Source: a virus. Taken from it: DNA of 20,355 nucleotides. The position numbers and the translations under genes are program-made. The stretch's first letter is position 1. Every line of letters begins with the position of its first letter. Below are positions 8,852 through 18,747 of the stretch, piece by piece. The notes beneath the pieces are model-generated. The model saw only the letters and a list, made by a program, of their open reading frames with translations. It made no database searches and was not told the DNA's origin. The stretch is taken from the IMG/VR virus record IMGVR_UViG_3300007539_000305, positions 1-20,355 of that record. One strand, written 5' to 3'.

Positions 8852-9264
8852 TAGCTTTCGTATACCCTTCTAAATGTTGCTGTACAACTATAAAAATTAT
8901 CGCTATCATATGAATGAGAGTAAGAGTGGCATACTACACGCACGGATCTCTCTGCTGCCGTTCCATCTGCATTTGTTGCTGGAATTGTAAGATCAAAAGC
9001 TGTAACTCCTTTTCTTAGTTCAAAGGTGGCAACAATAGCATCAACTTCCTCTTTATTTCTATTGTTAAAAGTTAGTGAATATTCTTCTTTTACGTTGTTT
9101 AAACCGTCTGGAGCGCGTTGTTCATATCCGTCCCCAAAAGTTGCTAAAAACACTTTGGGAGTACCTGCTCTTGACATTGTTTTATCAGGAGTTACTCGAG
9201 TGCTTGAAGTTGTTGTTCCATTTACAAACCCCAAGCCATCTTCTAATAAAAATCCTAGTGCCAT
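8851..9264 (-). CDS. Minor tail protein, lambda gpM-like
   Basis: At 137 residues it is a little longer than lambda gpM (about 109). The central motif FGDGYEQR (residues 43-50) followed by GLNNVKEEYSLTFNNR is characteristic of the family, as is the C-terminal aromatic stretch FYSCTATFRRVYES. gpM-type proteins join the tape-measure C-terminus to the tail tip. Its ATG overlaps the tape-measure stop by one base (TAATG), and its stop overlaps the gpL-like start in the same way, so the three genes are translationally coupled. Position between tape measure and gpL matches lambda. Confidence 0.87.
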   Translation of the reverse strand: MALGFLLEDGLGFVNGTTTSSTRVTPDKTMSRAGTPKVFLATFGDGYEQRAPDGLNNVKEEYSLTFNNRNKEEVDAIVATFELRKGVTAFDLTIPATNADGTAAERSVRVVCHSYSHSYDSDNFYSCTATFRRVYES

Positions 9265-12200
9265 TATGCTACTCCATACGGGTTAAGCATTCCCCCCGAC
9301 CTTTTTTGTGTTTTTAGTTCTTCTCTAACCGCTTTAGCTATCGCTTTACCCATGCGCTCTTGATCTCCTTGTACGTTTCCGTTTGCCGAAACAGAACCAT
9401 CAGAAGCTACATTGATAACAATATTATTATTTTGATCTCCGCCCCCACGCATTTCTACAGGTATTTTTTTATTATTTGGTAGAGGGACTACTGCTTCAGT
9501 TCCGTGCAATACCGCCGGATATCCTGCTGTAGACCCTGAGGCTATTCCGCCTGCTGCGTATCCAGGTAGTTTTCCTCCAGGACCAAAGACACCGCCATTT
9601 CTGGCCGCCGGAGCTGCTGACCCTCCAAACATACCTTTAAATAAGTCTCCAAGAAAGTCTTTTGAGGCAGTAAACATATTTTTCATCATAGCACCAAAAG
9701 ACGTAAAAGATTCACCAATTTTACTAAGGAAAGAGCTATCCGAATCAAAAATATCTCCTATCTCTGCTCCAAATTCTGTAAACGATTCTTTTATACTCAT
9801 GGTAGTGTCTCCCATGTCTTCCGCAAAGGTCTCGACAAGATTTACTTCACCATGATCACCAGCAGTAAAACTGGAGCTGAAAGTCGTAGGCTTTGCCATA
9901 CTAACGTCTACTTTTGAGCCACCGCCACCGCCAAGCCATCCAGGTAATTTAAAGTCTTTAAAAAAGTCTCCAACACCTCCTAATAAACCTTTAGATGTAT
10001 TTGCATTAGTAGCAACTGTTGCTCCTCCTAAAGCCGCAGTATTAGCATTTATAGCGGCAGTATTTGTAGCCATTGCAACTTCTAAAGATTGCTCAGGGCT
10101 TCCGAAAAGAAAGTCTGTAAATAGTTTTGCTGCTTTTTCTGCTACAGCATCAAGTACAGAATCTACTGCGGATTTTGCAATTCTTCCGAAAGCTTCTGAT
10201 ATACTGCTTTCTTCTCCTTTAAGTAATGCTGCAAACTCTTTTTTTGCACTACTTTCTGTACCCGCTTTTGCAGCTGCTAGTTGTTTCTGTGTAAAATCAT
10301 TTTGTAATTCTGCAACCGCTAATTGTTGAAGCAAAAGATTTAATTTTTCTTGTTCTTGTTCTACTTTTGTTTGATCTGTTTTAGCGCCTGCTTCCGCCAA
10401 TATTTTCATGCGTTCTTGTGAGGCTACGATAGAGTCTTGTAAAGTAACAATATTGCCCTGTCTTTCTAGTTCAGCTGCTTGTAGCGGGCTTGCTTGCATA
10501 CCAAGTCTTAGTATTTTTCTTTTTGTTTGAAGAGCCTGAATTTCAATCTTGTGTTCTGATTGTCTTATTCTAAGATTTTGTTCTGATAGTTTTTGAATTA
10601 CCTGCTCTTTTGTCATACTCTTTAAGGTTTCTAAACTAATCCCTAATAGTTTAGAATAGGCACTCATTCTTGCAAGACCTTCTTGACTGGGGCCGAAATA
10701 TTCTCCCATAGTTCCAGACATGGTAAGAGTATTTAGAGATTCTGCAAAAGATTTATTTATAGCCAAAAACTCACTGAACTGTGATTTTGCCTGTCCCACA
10801 CTCTCTCTAAATTTATCAAATACTTCTACATTTTGCCCTATTCCTTCTATGGCTGCTTTTTGTGCTGCAAGTACTGGATTTAGTTTTTGCGCTTCAGCCA
10901 CAATCCCTGGAAAGTTCTTCTGTATTAATAGAAGTGCAGCATTATAGTCTTCTGCTGAGGAGAATGGGTCTTCTAACGTACTCAAAGCACCTCCTATTCC
11001 CTCTATTCCTTCCATGAACTTAGCTGTTGCTCCATCTGCTGTAATCCCAAACTTAACCAGAGCTTCTCCCTGCAAAGACAAACTAGTAAATACGTCTCTA
11101 AGAGATTTTGTAACTTTTTCATTTTGTTCCGGAAGATCTTTTACTTCTTTTTGGACTTGTCTGAGTACTTCTAAAGGGTTTGCTCCTGTGGTATTAATAG
11201 GAGTCATTTCGGTTACAGTTACAGTTTTTGTGCCGGACATTCCTAACTTGTCAACCATGCCTTCTACACCACTAAACGAGAAATTAGCAAGTAAGTTTGC
11301 TTGCTTTACAATATTCTCCATAGGAGAAACACCTTCTTTAAAGTTTTTTACAAGTTTTGTTATTTCTTTATTTTGTTCTTGAAATCTCTCTGATAAAATA
11401 TCAGCAGCCTCTTGCATTTCTTTAATTGCAGGATCTTTGAACGTATTGATAAACTCTTTCGCAAGAGTAATCACAGTATATAACATACCAACAATAGCAA
11501 GTCCTGTAAGAAGTTTATTTACGCCTGAGACCATAGCAGCGGTAGAAGCTTTCATAAAGCCCATAGTTTTACCATGCTCTGCCTGTAAAGCTGCAAGATT
11601 TGCTTTCCAGTTAAGATACCACCTTCGTACACCTGACTTTTCATTAGCCATCGCCCGCAAGTGTGCCGCTTCAATTATATTAATATTTTTTAGTCTTTCG
11701 GTTTTCTCCATCTGATCAAGATTGATAACAGTAGAAGTTTTAGACTGGTGTGCTTTTTTCAATCGTCGAAGAACATCTTCATCAAAGGTTCCATCTCGCA
11801 TCTTATCAGCTGTTGCACCAGCACCGGCTATTCCCTGTAAATCCTTAGTTGCAGTTTTAGCAAGATCATCAATAGATTCCATTGCAGGCATCGCAGGCAT
11901 GAGTGCTCTACCAATAGAGATACCTAAACCACTAAAAGCTGCTGTGAGACCTACAATGTTATTTGCTAAAGCTCCTGATACAAATTTGGTAAGAGGATCT
12001 ATAAAGTCTCCCACATTTTTTACTAAGTCAGTGAATTTTTTACCTAAACGTGCAACTTGGTTAATATTGTTTCCGACTTCATCAAATTTTTCATTACCTT
12101 GAGCGAGTACAGCATTTACTACTGCTTGGGTTTTTTCAAACTGTGTAAGATCATCTGCTGCTTTGCCCACAACCCTGCCATACTCTTCTGTGACTGTATT

Positions 12201-12794
12201 CAATCGAATGATAATACCAAGTTCATCAAGAAGTTCAGGCTCTGCTTTAATAGCACCTCTAGTGAGTCGATTAAAGGAATCTGTAAGATCTCTACCTAGT
12301 GCCACAGAAGCATTTTTTGCTACTGTTGCTAAGCCTGTGAGTTGGTCTGAGGAAAGTCCTGCTGCAGTACCGATTGCTACTGCCTGAGATGCTTCATTAA
12401 AAGCTAGTATACCGCCTGTAGCTTCTTGAACTCTACTAGTTAAGAGTTTCATTGATGAACCAGTTTTAATTGCGTAAGCTTCTTGTCCACGAGAAAGTGC
12501 GGCCACATCTGCGGCTCGTTTAAAGAATCCAAAGGCTGCTGTAATTGCAAAGATATTTGCAGCAAGAGTTGCATAAGCACCTACTAGGCCGCCCATGCCT
12601 TGAGACATTTTTGAGAAGTTTTTACTTGCACCCGACGAGGCTTGTGCGGCACCTTTGATATTTCTATCTGCGGTACGTGCACCTTTGCCCACATCGTCCA
12701 TGCCTTTAGCTGCTTTTTTAGACTCAAGACCTAGTTTTTTAGTTTGGCCTTTATCATCTACTTCTACATCTATCTCAATTTTATTTTTTGCCAT
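9264..12794 (-). CDS. Tape measure protein
   Basis: At 1176 residues it is the second-longest complete gene here, alanine/glycine- and glutamine-rich, helical by composition. The N-terminus is charged, followed by hydrophobic segments at about 68-92, 273-297 and 420-446, as expected for a protein that is extruded into the host envelope. A heptad-like region follows at about 720-880 (many Q/E/K/L). The C-terminus has the family ending: repeated NGGVFGPGGKLPGYAAGGIA, then GTEAVVPLPNNKKIPV, and finally GGMLNPYGVA, where chaperones and the tip bind. It sets tail length; at roughly 1.5 angstrom per residue a tail near 175 nm would be expected (inference). The ATG overlaps the stop of the gpT-like frame (TAATG). 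No lysozyme or peptidase motif was seen inside it. Confidence 0.96.
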   Translation of the reverse strand: MAKNKIEIDVEVDDKGQTKKLGLESKKAAKGMDDVGKGARTADRNIKGAAQASSGASKNFSKMSQGMGGLVGAYATLAANIFAITAAFGFFKRAADVAALSRGQEAYAIKTGSSMKLLTSRVQEATGGILAFNEASQAVAIGTAAGLSSDQLTGLATVAKNASVALGRDLTDSFNRLTRGAIKAEPELLDELGIIIRLNTVTEEYGRVVGKAADDLTQFEKTQAVVNAVLAQGNEKFDEVGNNINQVARLGKKFTDLVKNVGDFIDPLTKFVSGALANNIVGLTAAFSGLGISIGRALMPAMPAMESIDDLAKTATKDLQGIAGAGATADKMRDGTFDEDVLRRLKKAHQSKTSTVINLDQMEKTERLKNINIIEAAHLRAMANEKSGVRRWYLNWKANLAALQAEHGKTMGFMKASTAAMVSGVNKLLTGLAIVGMLYTVITLAKEFINTFKDPAIKEMQEAADILSERFQEQNKEITKLVKNFKEGVSPMENIVKQANLLANFSFSGVEGMVDKLGMSGTKTVTVTEMTPINTTGANPLEVLRQVQKEVKDLPEQNEKVTKSLRDVFTSLSLQGEALVKFGITADGATAKFMEGIEGIGGALSTLEDPFSSAEDYNAALLLIQKNFPGIVAEAQKLNPVLAAQKAAIEGIGQNVEVFDKFRESVGQAKSQFSEFLAINKSFAESLNTLTMSGTMGEYFGPSQEGLARMSAYSKLLGISLETLKSMTKEQVIQKLSEQNLRIRQSEHKIEIQALQTKRKILRLGMQASPLQAAELERQGNIVTLQDSIVASQERMKILAEAGAKTDQTKVEQEQEKLNLLLQQLAVAELQNDFTQKQLAAAKAGTESSAKKEFAALLKGEESSISEAFGRIAKSAVDSVLDAVAEKAAKLFTDFLFGSPEQSLEVAMATNTAAINANTAALGGATVATNANTSKGLLGGVGDFFKDFKLPGWLGGGGGSKVDVSMAKPTTFSSSFTAGDHGEVNLVETFAEDMGDTTMSIKESFTEFGAEIGDIFDSDSSFLSKIGESFTSFGAMMKNMFTASKDFLGDLFKGMFGGSAAPAARNGGVFGPGGKLPGYAAGGIASGSTAGYPAVLHGTEAVVPLPNNKKIPVEMRGGGDQNNNIVINVASDGSVSANGNVQGDQERMGKAIAKAVREELKTQKRSGGMLNPYGVA

Positions 12795-13635
12795 TAGCCT
12801 TTGATATTATGGGTGTACTGTTTTCCACCGCTCGAAGCTTTTTGCTTCCTTTCTTCTGCTTTTCGCTTTTGTTCTGCTTTTTTAGCTTTATAATCCACTA
12901 CTAGTCCTTCGTATAGCTTTAATAAGTAGAGAATTATTCTTGGCTCTTGTACTTCATAAAGATTAAATAAATATTCTATAGTGCCCCAGTTTTTTCCTAG
13001 ATAAGTTCCTGACATTGTATCCCAGTTATCGTCTAAAAACCCAAATATAAAAAATGCCACTTGAACCTCCATCGGGAAGTCCGAGGGGTTTAGCGGCATC
13101 TTATTGGGGTCTGGCTCTTGATTTAGTTGTTCACAGATGTTTAAATATTTTTCAATATCTATACTAGAATCTTGTTCCTGAATGTATCGTTCAAGTAGCC
13201 TTTTTATCTGGGCTACTTGTTCCCAGTAAAATTTTCTAGATCGCTCACTGTTTCTGTAACCCAAGTATCAAAGTCCCCAGAGTTTTTCATTAGCAACTCT
13301 GCATTCTCTTGGGTAAAGGGCAGTTCATCTTCGGGGTCAAGAGCTGATATATCTACCAATAGAAGCTCTTCCAAGTAACGATATTTTAAGCCAGACCAAC
13401 CTTTAATAACTGATTTACAGTACTCTTTTAAGAATTTTTCTTCTTCTAGAAACTCTTCTGGTTGACGAGTTTTTTTACTAAATTTAGTTGTTACACATTT
13501 TTTTCTTAGCTTTACTAACTCTTCTCTTGCTAAATAGCATAAAAGAACTTTCATTCCGTCGTATCCGGGGAAGCTAATACTTACTGTCTTACTTGGAGTC
13601 ATTAGACTCGCTAAAGAAACGGGTGTTTCACTCAT
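12794..13635 (-). CDS. Tail assembly chaperone, gpGT-like -1 frameshift fusion
   Basis: The second chaperone frame (12794 to about 13264) has no convincing start of its own and overlaps the gpG-like frame by 52 bases. It lies in the -1 frame relative to it. A slip at 13228-13234 would fuse gpG residues 1-136 (ending LENF) to YWEQVAQIKRLL, giving about 280 residues, close to lambda gpGT. The added 144-residue part is charged and helical (IEYLFNLYEVQEPRIILYLLKLYEG, 94-118 of its frame) with a Lys/Glu-rich tail. In lambda, G and GT wrap the tape measure and recruit tube subunits; T is not in the mature virion. The stop overlaps the tape-measure start (TAATG). An in-frame ATG at 13264 exists but I see no RBS and judge it incidental. 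Confidence 0.85.
13192..13234 (-). promoter_or_regulatory. -1 programmed ribosomal frameshift signal of the tail chaperone genes
   Basis: The slip site A-AAT-TTT (13234-13228, minus strand) fits X-XXY-YYZ exactly in the gpG frame. After an 8-base spacer (13227-13220) comes a perfect inverted repeat: CAAGTAGCC (13219-13211), a 10-base loop, and GGCTACTTG (13200-13192). The gpG stop codon lies in the 5' arm. A CTGGG in the spacer could also pair with CCCAG (13212-13208), competing with or adding to the main stem. The shifted frame joins straight to the gpT-like sequence. All of this is read directly; shift efficiency is unknown. Confidence 0.88.
13213..13635 (-). CDS. Tail assembly chaperone, gpG-like (unshifted product)
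   Basis: 140 residues, the same length as lambda gpG. Family features include KSVIKGWSGLKYRYLEELLLVD (residues 74-95) and the C-terminal LPFTQENAELLMKNSGDFDTWV (105-126), the usual pattern around tail chaperones that precede a frameshift. It starts at the ATG 13635-13633 with an AAAGGA ribosome-binding sequence about 9 bases upstream, and ends at a TAG inside the frameshift hairpin. Most ribosomes should end here; a minority shift to make the longer fusion. The gene lies downstream of a promoter and terminator pair, so its mRNA comes from readthrough. Confidence 0.88.
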   Translation of the reverse strand: MSETPVSLASLMTPSKTVSISFPGYDGMKVLLCYLAREELVKLRKKCVTTKFSKKTRQPEEFLEEEKFLKEYCKSVIKGWSGLKYRYLEELLLVDISALDPEDELPFTQENAELLMKNSGDFDTWVTETVSDLENFTGNK

Positions 13636-13665
13636 GTTATATTTATCCTTTTGTTTATGGGAATG

Positions 13666-13689
13666 AAAAAGGGGTGAAAATCACCCCTT
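13666..13689 (-). terminator. Intrinsic terminator ahead of the tail chaperone genes
   Basis: On the minus strand: AA, stem GGGGTGA, loop TTT, stem TCACCCC, then TTTTT. The stem is 7 perfect G+C-rich pairs and can be lengthened by A-U pairs with the flanking runs. It follows the two major tail genes and would lower expression of the chaperone, tape-measure and tip genes relative to the tube. It also lies just downstream of a strong promoter, so a transcript started there would be only about 40 bases long unless polymerase reads through. Confidence 0.85.
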
Positions 13690-13709
13690 GTTTCGATTTT
13701 CTATTTCAT

Positions 13710-13738
13710 AGTATAGTCTAAAAGACCATAAATGTCAA
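13710..13738 (-). promoter_or_regulatory. Near-consensus sigma70 promoter facing the terminator
   Basis: Minus strand: -35 TTGACA (13738-13733, perfect), a spacer of exactly 17 bases, -10 TATACT (13715-13710, one mismatch from TATAAT). An A/T-rich tract (AAAAAATATTTC, 13750-13739) abuts the -35 like an UP element. The spacer contains GTCTTTTAGAC, a small inverted repeat that might bind a regulator. The expected start is an A near 13704-13702. It is the only promoter of this quality I noticed in the window. Confidence 0.78.
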
Positions 13739-13758
13739 GAAATATTTTTTACTACCTA

Positions 13759-14922
13759 TTACGAAGGTGGGTAGTATTCTAGTGTTGCTTCATAGTTAGT
13801 AGCGGTAGTATCTGGATCCAAACTAGCAGTTAGAGCATGGAAGTTTACATCTAGAGATATAACATCTTCAATAGAGTGCGTGGGTACTTCTAAATGGCAC
13901 TGAGGTAGTTTAATCTCTACTCTAGGGCTATTTGATGCTCCTCCTACTTTAAAGGTTAGGCTAAACTCATTACTTACCACTCTATCCTTTTCTACAATAT
14001 GTTTAAATAGATCATCTACATCTCCATCTGCGTTAGCATCCAGATAGCAAGTAAAATTGCCTGCAATGTTACGTGTTCCTGTAACATGTCCAATAGGTGT
14101 ATCAACTTTGCCCAAAGTTTCAGGTGTTAAAAATGTAATATTGTTTGAGAAAGTAATACTACCTCCGGTAAGAACAGTATTATATACACCATCAGAGCTT
14201 GCTCCCGGGAAATTTGTAGTATCTGCTGCAGTAATTGCCAAAGATGTTAAACGATTGCGTATAAAGTTATTTGTATCACTTATACCTTCATTTATAGTAG
14301 TTGTAGCCGAAGGAGTTGTGGAACCTTCATCAACAATCTTTGCTCCAAAACCAGACCAAGAAATAGTTGCAATTCCATCAATATCAAACTCAATAGAAGC
14401 TTCATTTACACAGCAGTTTGTAATTTTATAAACTTTATCTGTTCCGGTTCCCAGTACAAAGAAAAGTTCAAAAGTACCTAGCTCCGATACTTCAGAGCCT
14501 GTCCAATCTACCACTGTATAACTAGATCCGCTTGGTTCAATGCCGTCCGCCCAAGCAGATGCAGCACCCGAACCTCCTTTAGTAAGTGCATTATTTGCAA
14601 CGAAATTAGCCCATAAAGGTTCCTCTACTGAGTGAACTCTATTATAGTTAGCATGTTCCCAGTCGTTAGTGCCTCCAGTAGTACTTTTTAAAGGTCTGAT
14701 ATAGGTTGAGAAAGACCATTCTGCGGGAGAGTATGAGTCGTTAAACATTCTACGACTTCTTTTACTTTTTGATACTGATGAGCTTTCTCTTGCTTCATTC
14801 AGCGTAACTTCTGATGCGTTTGTGGCTTGGGAAAATTCAAAGCCATCTAAGACAGGTATTTCAAATAAAACATTATTCTGTTTTAAATATACCTTTGTAT
14901 CTCTACTAAAATATAATGACAT
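13759..14922 (-). CDS. Major tail (tube) protein, second paralog
   Basis: 387 residues, clearly paralogous to the preceding gene. Shared blocks include EIPVLDGF...SQATNASEVTLNE (residues 21-43), PAEWSFSTY (66-74), CCVNE...FDIDGIAT followed by a Trp-Ser-Gly, LTPETLG, GHVTGTR and CHLEVPTH-IEDVISL near the end. Position and size, as well as the neighbouring chaperone, frameshift and tape measure genes, make a tube protein the best call. It is much longer than lambda gpV (about 246), so it probably carries extra surface domains. It starts at an ATG preceded by a strong AAGGAG that overlaps the stop codon of the first paralog. It ends just before the promoter/terminator region. Confidence 0.82.
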   Translation of the reverse strand: MSLYFSRDTKVYLKQNNVLFEIPVLDGFEFSQATNASEVTLNEARESSSVSKSKRSRRMFNDSYSPAEWSFSTYIRPLKSTTGGTNDWEHANYNRVHSVEEPLWANFVANNALTKGGSGAASAWADGIEPSGSSYTVVDWTGSEVSELGTFELFFVLGTGTDKVYKITNCCVNEASIEFDIDGIATISWSGFGAKIVDEGSTTPSATTTINEGISDTNNFIRNRLTSLAITAADTTNFPGASSDGVYNTVLTGGSITFSNNITFLTPETLGKVDTPIGHVTGTRNIAGNFTCYLDANADGDVDDLFKHIVEKDRVVSNEFSLTFKVGGASNSPRVEIKLPQCHLEVPTHSIEDVISLDVNFHALTASLDPDTTATNYEATLEYYPPS

Positions 14923-14933
14923 TATAATTCTCC

Positions 14934-16172
14934 TTAGCCTGCGTAACTAATTACTAGCTCGTTTGTGCCGCCTACAGTTGAAGGAAGGGCATGGAAGTTG
15001 GTTTCAAGAGATATAACATCTTCAATATTATGTGTTGGTATCTCCAAGTGACAGTTTTCCATCTTAAACTCAATAGTAGGAGTAGTTGTAGCAATAGTGC
15101 CTCCTATTGAGAATGTAAGATTAAAGGAATTAGTAATAGTATCAGTTGCTCCAATCAAGTCGGAAAAAAGATCCGCACTTGCATTTGATTCGTTATTAAG
15201 ATAACAACTGACACTACCTGAAACAGTTCTTGTACCTGTAACATGTCCTAGAGGCTGATTAACAACTCCTAGTGTTTCTGGAGTAACAAAAGTCATATTA
15301 TTAGAAATAGTAATATTGCCTCCCGTTAAAGGTAAGGTTACCGATCCTGATGTGGTAGTCGAAGACGCACTCAAGTATGAAAGACGATTACGAATATAGT
15401 TAGTATCTGAATCGATTCCATCTACCGTGGGTTTAATTACTGCTGCAAAGTCAGTTGTTTTTGCAATCTGAATAGAAGAGTTACTATATGCTGGAGAGTC
15501 AGTTTTAAGCCAAATATCATCGCCTGCTACGCCCGTGGGGCTAGTATCGCTTGCTGTCACAGCTACTTCTTTTATAATTTTACCCATTCCTGACCAGTTT
15601 AAAGTTGCTATCCCGTCAATATCAAAATCAAAGGTTACTTCATTTACACAGCACCCTTCAATTTTGTATGCGGTTAATGCATCGCCCGCTGCTGCCGAAT
15701 CTGAAGAATCGCCCATAACAAACCAAATGCTTGCTGTACCTAAATTAGTTTTATTTGATTGTCCAAAATCAATTACTTGCTGGTTAGCTGTACCGCCAGT
15801 CCCTTGCGCTATATAAGAGCTTCCACTTACAGAAGAATCTCTGAAAGTATTATCCGCGGACTTATAGTATGCATCTCCTGCTAATAATGCCCACAGTGCT
15901 TGTTCTACAGATCTGTCTTTGCTGCTTGCAAAGAAAGGTCTTGCATAAGTTGAAAAAGACCACTCTGCCGGTGCAAAAGAGTCATTAAAAAGTTGTCGAT
16001 CCCTACGACTAACGCCGTCTGCATCTGCCATCTCATTCAATGTCACTTCTGAGGCATTTGTGGCTTGAGAGAAAGAAAATCCGTCTAATACAGGTATTTC
16101 CCAGGCAGCGTCTCCACTGTCTAACCGTATAAAGACTCTCGTATCTCTGCTAAAAAATAATGAATCTGCCAT
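14934..16172 (-). CDS. Major tail (tube) protein, first paralog
   Basis: 412 residues, homologous over its whole length to the next gene. The N-terminus SLFFSRDTRVF matches SLYFSRDTKVY there; the blocks PVLDGFSFSQATNASEVTLNE, GCCVNEVTFDFDIDGIATLNW, FVTPETLG, GHVTGTR and CHLEIPTHNIEDVISL recur in the same order. The two differ mainly in residues 80-150 and 200-270, where length and sequence vary. The start has a strong AGGAG about 7 bases upstream within a 61-base leader (16173-16233), in which I see no promoter or terminator. Together the two genes could build a mixed tube, or one could be a tube and the other a decorated or end-specific form; the sequence alone does not decide. Confidence 0.82.
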   Translation of the reverse strand: MADSLFFSRDTRVFIRLDSGDAAWEIPVLDGFSFSQATNASEVTLNEMADADGVSRRDRQLFNDSFAPAEWSFSTYARPFFASSKDRSVEQALWALLAGDAYYKSADNTFRDSSVSGSSYIAQGTGGTANQQVIDFGQSNKTNLGTASIWFVMGDSSDSAAAGDALTAYKIEGCCVNEVTFDFDIDGIATLNWSGMGKIIKEVAVTASDTSPTGVAGDDIWLKTDSPAYSNSSIQIAKTTDFAAVIKPTVDGIDSDTNYIRNRLSYLSASSTTTSGSVTLPLTGGNITISNNMTFVTPETLGVVNQPLGHVTGTRTVSGSVSCYLNNESNASADLFSDLIGATDTITNSFNLTFSIGGTIATTTPTIEFKMENCHLEIPTHNIEDVISLETNFHALPSTVGGTNELVISYAG

Positions 16173-18712: not shown

Positions 18713-18747
18713 AAAAACTTGGGGGAGATAAACTCCCCCTCGTTTTT
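18713..18747 (-). terminator. Hairpin terminator / attenuator after the major capsid gene
   Basis: Minus strand: AAAAAC, GA, stem GGGGGAG, loop TTTAT, stem CTCCCCC, AA, GTTTTT. The 7-bp core is perfect and the outer AAAAAC/GTTTTT arms also pair across a 2x2 internal loop. The U-rich tract lies at the 3' end on either strand, so it could act in both directions. It sits 18 bases after the capsid stop and would reduce readthrough into the connector and tail genes, keeping capsid protein in excess. Confidence 0.82.

Follow-up and report, generated by a model that had tools for sequence, protein, structure and literature searches.

A conserved promoter facing a terminator at the boundary between the tail-tube and chaperone genes of T5-like marine phages: a candidate dosage boundary

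In the 20,355-base virus record analysed here over its whole length, hereafter called the window, a sigma70-type promoter lies between the second of two tail-tube genes and the tail assembly chaperone genes, and it points into an intrinsic-terminator hairpin on the same strand. Read from the sequence and from its relatives, the locus combines a conserved promoter, a covarying hairpin followed by a U-run, one terminator per locus, and a leader that is constrained when the terminator follows the promoter. The interpretation that we favour, with moderate confidence, is that the site is a dosage boundary, in which a terminator behind the abundant tail-tube gene is combined with a local promoter for the low-copy chaperone and tape-measure unit, this unit being reached in the window lineage by readthrough. 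In this model, the intrinsic terminator 3' of the highly expressed tail-tube gene would stop most of the transcripts coming from upstream, and the local sigma70 promoter would supply the low-copy unit with an RNA of its own, in limited amount. The window lineage has its promoter immediately 5' of the terminator; an RNA started at this promoter would meet the stop about 40 nucleotides (nt) later, and the chaperone and tape-measure RNA would be made only by the polymerases that read through the hairpin. The parts themselves are known; what is new is the conservation, at a boundary between tail genes, of a promoter that runs into a terminator, and its alternation with the reverse order among near relatives.

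The promoter, the leader and the hairpin

On the minus strand, the 123-nt gap between the two genes reads GTAAAAAATATTTC-TTGACA-17-TATACT-ATGAAATAGAAAATCGAAAC-AAGGGGTGATTTTCACCCCTT-TTTCATT, followed by AGGA and ATG (Table 1). An earlier note on this DNA had described a promoter firing into a same-strand terminator between the second tail-tube gene and the chaperone, and both its sequence and its coordinates are right, as is its A/T-rich upstream tract, GTAAAAAATATTTC standing directly 5' of the -35 element. The promoter scores 11/12, the highest value among the 57 promoter-like sites of the window. First-order Markov shuffling of 20 kilobases (kb) produces a match of this quality by chance in 63% of cases, vs 0.4% for shuffles of the 123-nt gap; the match alone is therefore weak evidence, and it is the conservation in relatives that constitutes the proof. 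All the near relatives (127/127) carry the features of a sigma70-type promoter, namely TTGAC[AT], a spacing of 17 base pairs (bp) and TATA[AC]T. Transcription would start nominally at about 13702-13704, and the default RNA would span about 40-45 nt.

The hairpin is formed by the stem AAGGGGTGA/TCACCCCTT at 13689-13669 and is followed by a U-run at 13670-13666. The leader folds better than nearly all of its shuffled versions (z = -3.4). When the covariation of the stem was counted by stem register with a script, the Watson-Crick types A-U, G-C, C-G and U-A were encountered at several stem positions with the pairing maintained, and several positions displayed at least three pair types. The hairpin is thus an RNA element with the stem, the U-run and the covariation of an intrinsic terminator, and termination at this place is predicted. 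Its outer stem extends into the U-tract, which resembles the organization of bidirectional terminators.

Directly 3' of the nominal start, the motif TAGAAAATC is invariant across an alignment of 34 rows, and in the full set of 44 loci of the window type, departures within it or next to it are limited to two loci (L098 and L105). This near-invariance is confined to the loci where the terminator follows the promoter. When loci of equal chaperone divergence (75-82%) are compared, leader identity is 83% among promoter-then-terminator loci vs 59% among terminator-then-promoter loci; the corresponding values are 86% vs 55% for the six bases 3' of the -10 element and 68% vs 58% for the spacer.

Three arrangements in related phages

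Near relatives were collected by means of the chaperone (80-90% identical to that of the window), with further scans added, and distant relatives through the tail-tube protein (about 38-58% identity); only non-identical loci were counted. The 178 loci comprise 44 in which the promoter precedes the terminator, as in the window, 83 in which the terminator precedes the promoter, and 51 with a hairpin only (30, 42 and 21 clusters, respectively, at 95% chaperone identity), none being classed as both and none as neither. Each of the 127 promoter-bearing near relatives possesses exactly one terminator in the gap and one -35/-10 pair with 17-bp spacing. This classification of the promoter-bearing loci is insensitive to stricter thresholds, and laxer ones displace one or two loci.

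In the 83 loci of the opposite order, the promoter, whose -10 element is mostly TATAAT, stands 3' of the terminator and runs straight into the chaperone gene. A second consensus promoter close to where the chaperone and tape-measure unit begins was not seen, and these observations together bear out the suggestion of the earlier note that the promoter serves these genes. Within this class, the loci L186-L264 share a spacer element of their own, ANCTCC, conserved at about -24 to -20. Further promoters of the group resemble this type, and the likeness may point to a class of phage promoters.

The distant group (51 loci) has its hairpin 10-25 nt past the tail-tube stop codon, without a promoter at that place, and 0 consensus promoters were found on the sense strand across 383 kb, so that, barring unseen promoters, its hairpin must be read through. 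The earlier note had proposed to compare relatives for the fate of the two elements: loss of the promoter with the terminator kept did not occur in close relatives and was seen only in this distant group.

A natural replacement is offered by clade C (7 loci), in which a strong terminator, GGGACTTCGGTCCC-TTTTT, has arisen 5' of the promoter. The hairpin on the downstream side has shrunk in this clade to GGAAA/TTTCC without a U-run, and the leader motif is altered. The chaperone of clade C is identical or nearly identical to that of window-type loci: in the chaperone tree, the clade groups with the window-type loci L252, L254 and L270, and the L252 chaperone protein is identical to that of two clade C loci. 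Where another terminator serves the boundary, the downstream hairpin and the leader motif have therefore both been given up, and the constant requirement appears to be one terminator between the tail-tube gene and the chaperone.

The earlier note had considered a promoter so close to the consensus unusual at this place, a view which the relatives correct: near-perfect TTGACN-17-TATAMT occurs on the coding strand every few kb (1-14 per contig in 18 relatives, against 1 match in total with the pattern reversed as a control). Strong sigma70 promoters ahead of both early and late genes are a known trait of T5-like phages (PMC7472727, PMC3326045). Among the contigs inspected closely, the sites other than the chaperone promoter are mostly in gaps near a gene start, and a U-tailed terminator directly 3' of the promoter is found at the chaperone promoter only; one further hairpin (G002) has a poor tail and is located where long frames are missing. 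A promoter in the late cluster is thus ordinary, and a promoter facing a terminator is not. A parallel is provided by the major capsid gene and the terminator hairpin behind it, GGGGGAGTTTATCTCCCCC-AAGTTTTT: a terminator stands 3' of this gene in 61/63 relatives, with a consensus promoter within the next 110 bases in none, so that expression of the genes that come next seems to require readthrough.

Alternative explanations

From this arrangement we infer the start site, the efficiency of termination and the dependence of the downstream genes on readthrough. The dependence would follow from the absence of other consensus promoters, and the position of the hairpin after an abundant structural gene fits a step-down terminator. 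As to the cause of readthrough, we favour partial termination, that is, simple leakage, over a dedicated antiterminator, which is possible. Three points weigh against a leaky dosage boundary. Judged by its sequence, the window-type hairpin is a strong one (the median fold of the leader is about -21 kcal/mol and the tail is U-rich), an odd property if transcripts from its own promoter have to get past it; the tight constraint on the leader TAGAAAATC is left unexplained by simple leakage; and an unrecognised promoter may be present downstream of the hairpin.

The strongest of the alternatives is a loaded antitermination of the Q/AlpA type, which we regard as tentative. A phage or host factor would bind the promoter spacer and seize the RNA polymerase while it pauses, in a sigma-dependent manner, within the first bases transcribed; only the polymerases started here would become terminator-resistant, and the upstream transcripts would stop, making the site a one-way filter and possibly a timing switch. 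The 21Q and AlpA systems have an intrinsic terminator preceded by an element in the spacer and by a leader sequence that resembles a -10 (PMC6606751, PMC9371919). Here, the conserved GGTC at about -24 to -21 occupies the place of the AlpA element GGGACG (-25 to -20, PMC9371919), a possible -10-like GAAAAT or GAAACT is found in the leader of 44/44 window-type loci, with the A at position 2 and the T at position 6 kept in 44/44, and an intrinsic terminator stands directly downstream of the promoter, in the same unit, in all 44. The higher identity of the leader in the promoter-then-terminator order and the loss of the leader motif together with the hairpin in clade C also speak for such a factor. 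On the other hand, a -10-like match of 4 of 6 easily arises in A/T-rich DNA, and since terminator-then-promoter loci have a conserved spacer element of their own (ANCTCC), the presence of such an element does not set the terminator-facing order apart. Furthermore, clade C drops the arrangement and its chaperone is not replaced. Q-family proteins (PF06530, PF03589) were not found in 17 contigs, all of them fragments, and this search is weak because AlpA and 21Q share no sequence similarity (PMC9371919). The more ambitious form of this proposal is slightly more doubtful still: a factor-loaded antitermination switch embedded in the promoter, of a kind not yet described for T5-like phages, would pass only its own polymerases and would have been replaced in related phages by the terminator-then-promoter order.

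The spacer could also have harboured an operator, as the earlier note had proposed from its inverted repeat, and the relatives lend no help to this idea: the arms of the dyad GTCTTTTAGAC are not conserved, 4-bp arms occurring in 12/44 loci (one sequence type) and 3-bp arms in 8/18 distinct types.

A small phage RNA of about 45 nt, with a constant unstructured 5' seed and a terminator hairpin, the downstream genes being expressed by readthrough, seems improbable to us. The anatomy would fit, with nearly invariant 5' bases, a covarying terminator stem and a U-rich tail. However, the seed complement TCGATTTTC is absent from the sense strand in 286 kb of window-type loci, shorter complements occur at chance level, and Rfam returned only sub-threshold chance matches; the small RNA of the earlier note gains no support as a regulator of nearby genes. 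The decay of the module in clade C upon acquisition of an upstream terminator is, moreover, expected of a boundary element, not of an RNA with its own target.

Less probable again is a classical RNA attenuator, in which the leader GAAAAUC would pair with GAUUUUC at the hairpin tip and block the terminator under some signal. The leader and the tip share a 7-base complementarity in the window, and the partial transcript folds in this way at -5.3 kcal/mol, but the complement is perfect in 9/44 loci (13 with G-U pairs), the median energy is -3 vs -21 kcal/mol for the full leader with its terminator, and the roughly 15 nt available can hold neither a ligand-binding domain nor a leader peptide. An antiterminator helix at the RNA level was rejected on the weakness of this alternative pairing and its lack of conservation. 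The attenuator-like arrangement of the earlier note is nevertheless real and conserved in relatives; of its overall interpretation, this arrangement and the role of the promoter are retained, and the unusual promoter, the operator dyad and the small RNA are not.

A functionless chance juxtaposition of promoter and terminator is hardly credible: most A/T-rich sequences of 20 kb are expected to contain an 11/12 match, but the promoter, the spacing, the leader and the covarying stem are conserved in 44 non-identical loci of 30 chaperone clusters, the objection that nearly all the loci form one recent lineage is contradicted by the chaperone tree, and a chance promoter was rejected by this conservation.

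Gene setting, known systems and significance

The window carries, in order, the major capsid gene, head-tail genes, two tail-tube genes, a chaperone pair, the tape measure gene and tail tip genes. The tail-tube, chaperone and tape-measure proteins are 29-44% identical in amino acids to those of T5-like phages (Demerecviridae and Vibrio relatives), and no match of the window to named phages was found at the DNA level. The phage group of the window is that of T5-like marine phages, and the tail genes, which the earlier note had placed in a lambda-type late operon, are of the T5 type instead. The tail-tube genes form a tandem pair at 13759-16172, both in one major-tail family (phrog_3575). The chaperone frames 13213-13635 and 12794-13264 share 52 bases (13213-13264), as expected of a programmed frameshift. 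Two chaperone relatives (L184, L185) are on contigs binned as a gammaproteobacterium and a euryarchaeon, which are probably phage contigs binned with cells.

Table 1. Features of the tail-tube/chaperone boundary and neighbouring elements (window coordinates)
Feature	Position	Strand	Remarks
Terminator hairpin after major capsid gene	18721..18739	-	Parallel case without following promoter
Second tail-tube (major tail) gene, upstream of the module	13759..14922	-	phrog_3575, E 2e-52
A/T-rich tract directly upstream of -35	13739..13752	-	AAAAA.A.TTC kept in relatives
-35 element TTGACA	13733..13738	-	TTGAC[AT] in 127/127 near relatives
17-bp spacer	13716..13732	-	Conserved GGTC at about -24 to -21
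-10 element TATACT	13710..13715	-	TATACT in 44/44 window-type loci
Initially transcribed motif TAGAAAATC	13695..13703	-	Nearly invariant; contains possible -10-like GAAAAT
Predicted intrinsic-terminator hairpin AAGGGGTGA-TTT-TCACCCCTT and U-run	13666..13689	-	9-bp stem, covaries in relatives
AGGA ribosome-binding site of chaperone	13646..13649	-	AGGA near start in 44/44 window-type loci
Tail assembly chaperone, first gene downstream of the module	13213..13635	-	phrog_313, E 1.9e-12
Tape measure gene, downstream	9264..12794	-	phrog_3779, E 3.5e-42; presumably same transcription unit as chaperone

Among known systems, phage T7 has a single terminator after its capsid gene, and its genes 11 and 12 are made only by readthrough (PMC5592923). 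The capsid-gene terminator of the present group looks the same as this T-phi, which follows the major capsid gene 10; unlike T7, however, the phages described here have host-type sigma70 promoters, and a dedicated promoter is added at the tail-tube boundary, before the terminator in the window type. Pairs of terminator and promoter between phage transcription units are matched exactly, at the same place, by the 83 relatives, whereas the window type is the reverse order, its promoter facing the terminator. The late region of T5-like phages (Demerecviridae) shares homologous tail genes, strong sigma70 promoters and a terminator-like hairpin inside the tail cluster. In the T5-like saus47N (L182:6180-6213) and the Vibrio phage D239 (L183:3805-3835), the hairpin stands directly before the tape measure gene, with no consensus promoter seen in the stretches read, whereas in the window it stands before the chaperone and is accompanied by a promoter.

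The likeness to the lambdoid PR'-tR' with Q and to the PalpB-tB of AlpA resides in a conserved element between -35 and -10, a possible -10-like leader sequence and a downstream intrinsic terminator. The differences are that the cognate protein was not found here (in 17 fragmentary contigs), that the terminator is only about 40 nt from the start, that the unit comprises the tail chaperone and the tape measure instead of all the late or lysis genes, and that related phages switch to the terminator-then-promoter order.

How phages set, inside a single gene cluster, the large copy-number gap that separates the tail tube from the tape measure has rarely been resolved, and the early-to-late switch of T5 continues to be presented as unexplained (PMC7472727). 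The present locus constitutes a natural experiment, in which the promoter stands before the terminator, after it, or is missing at the same boundary in related phages, and it makes the relation between the order of the elements and gene dosage directly testable. If the constrained leader does load an antiterminator, it would represent a new instance of this mechanism outside the lambdoid phages and AlpA.
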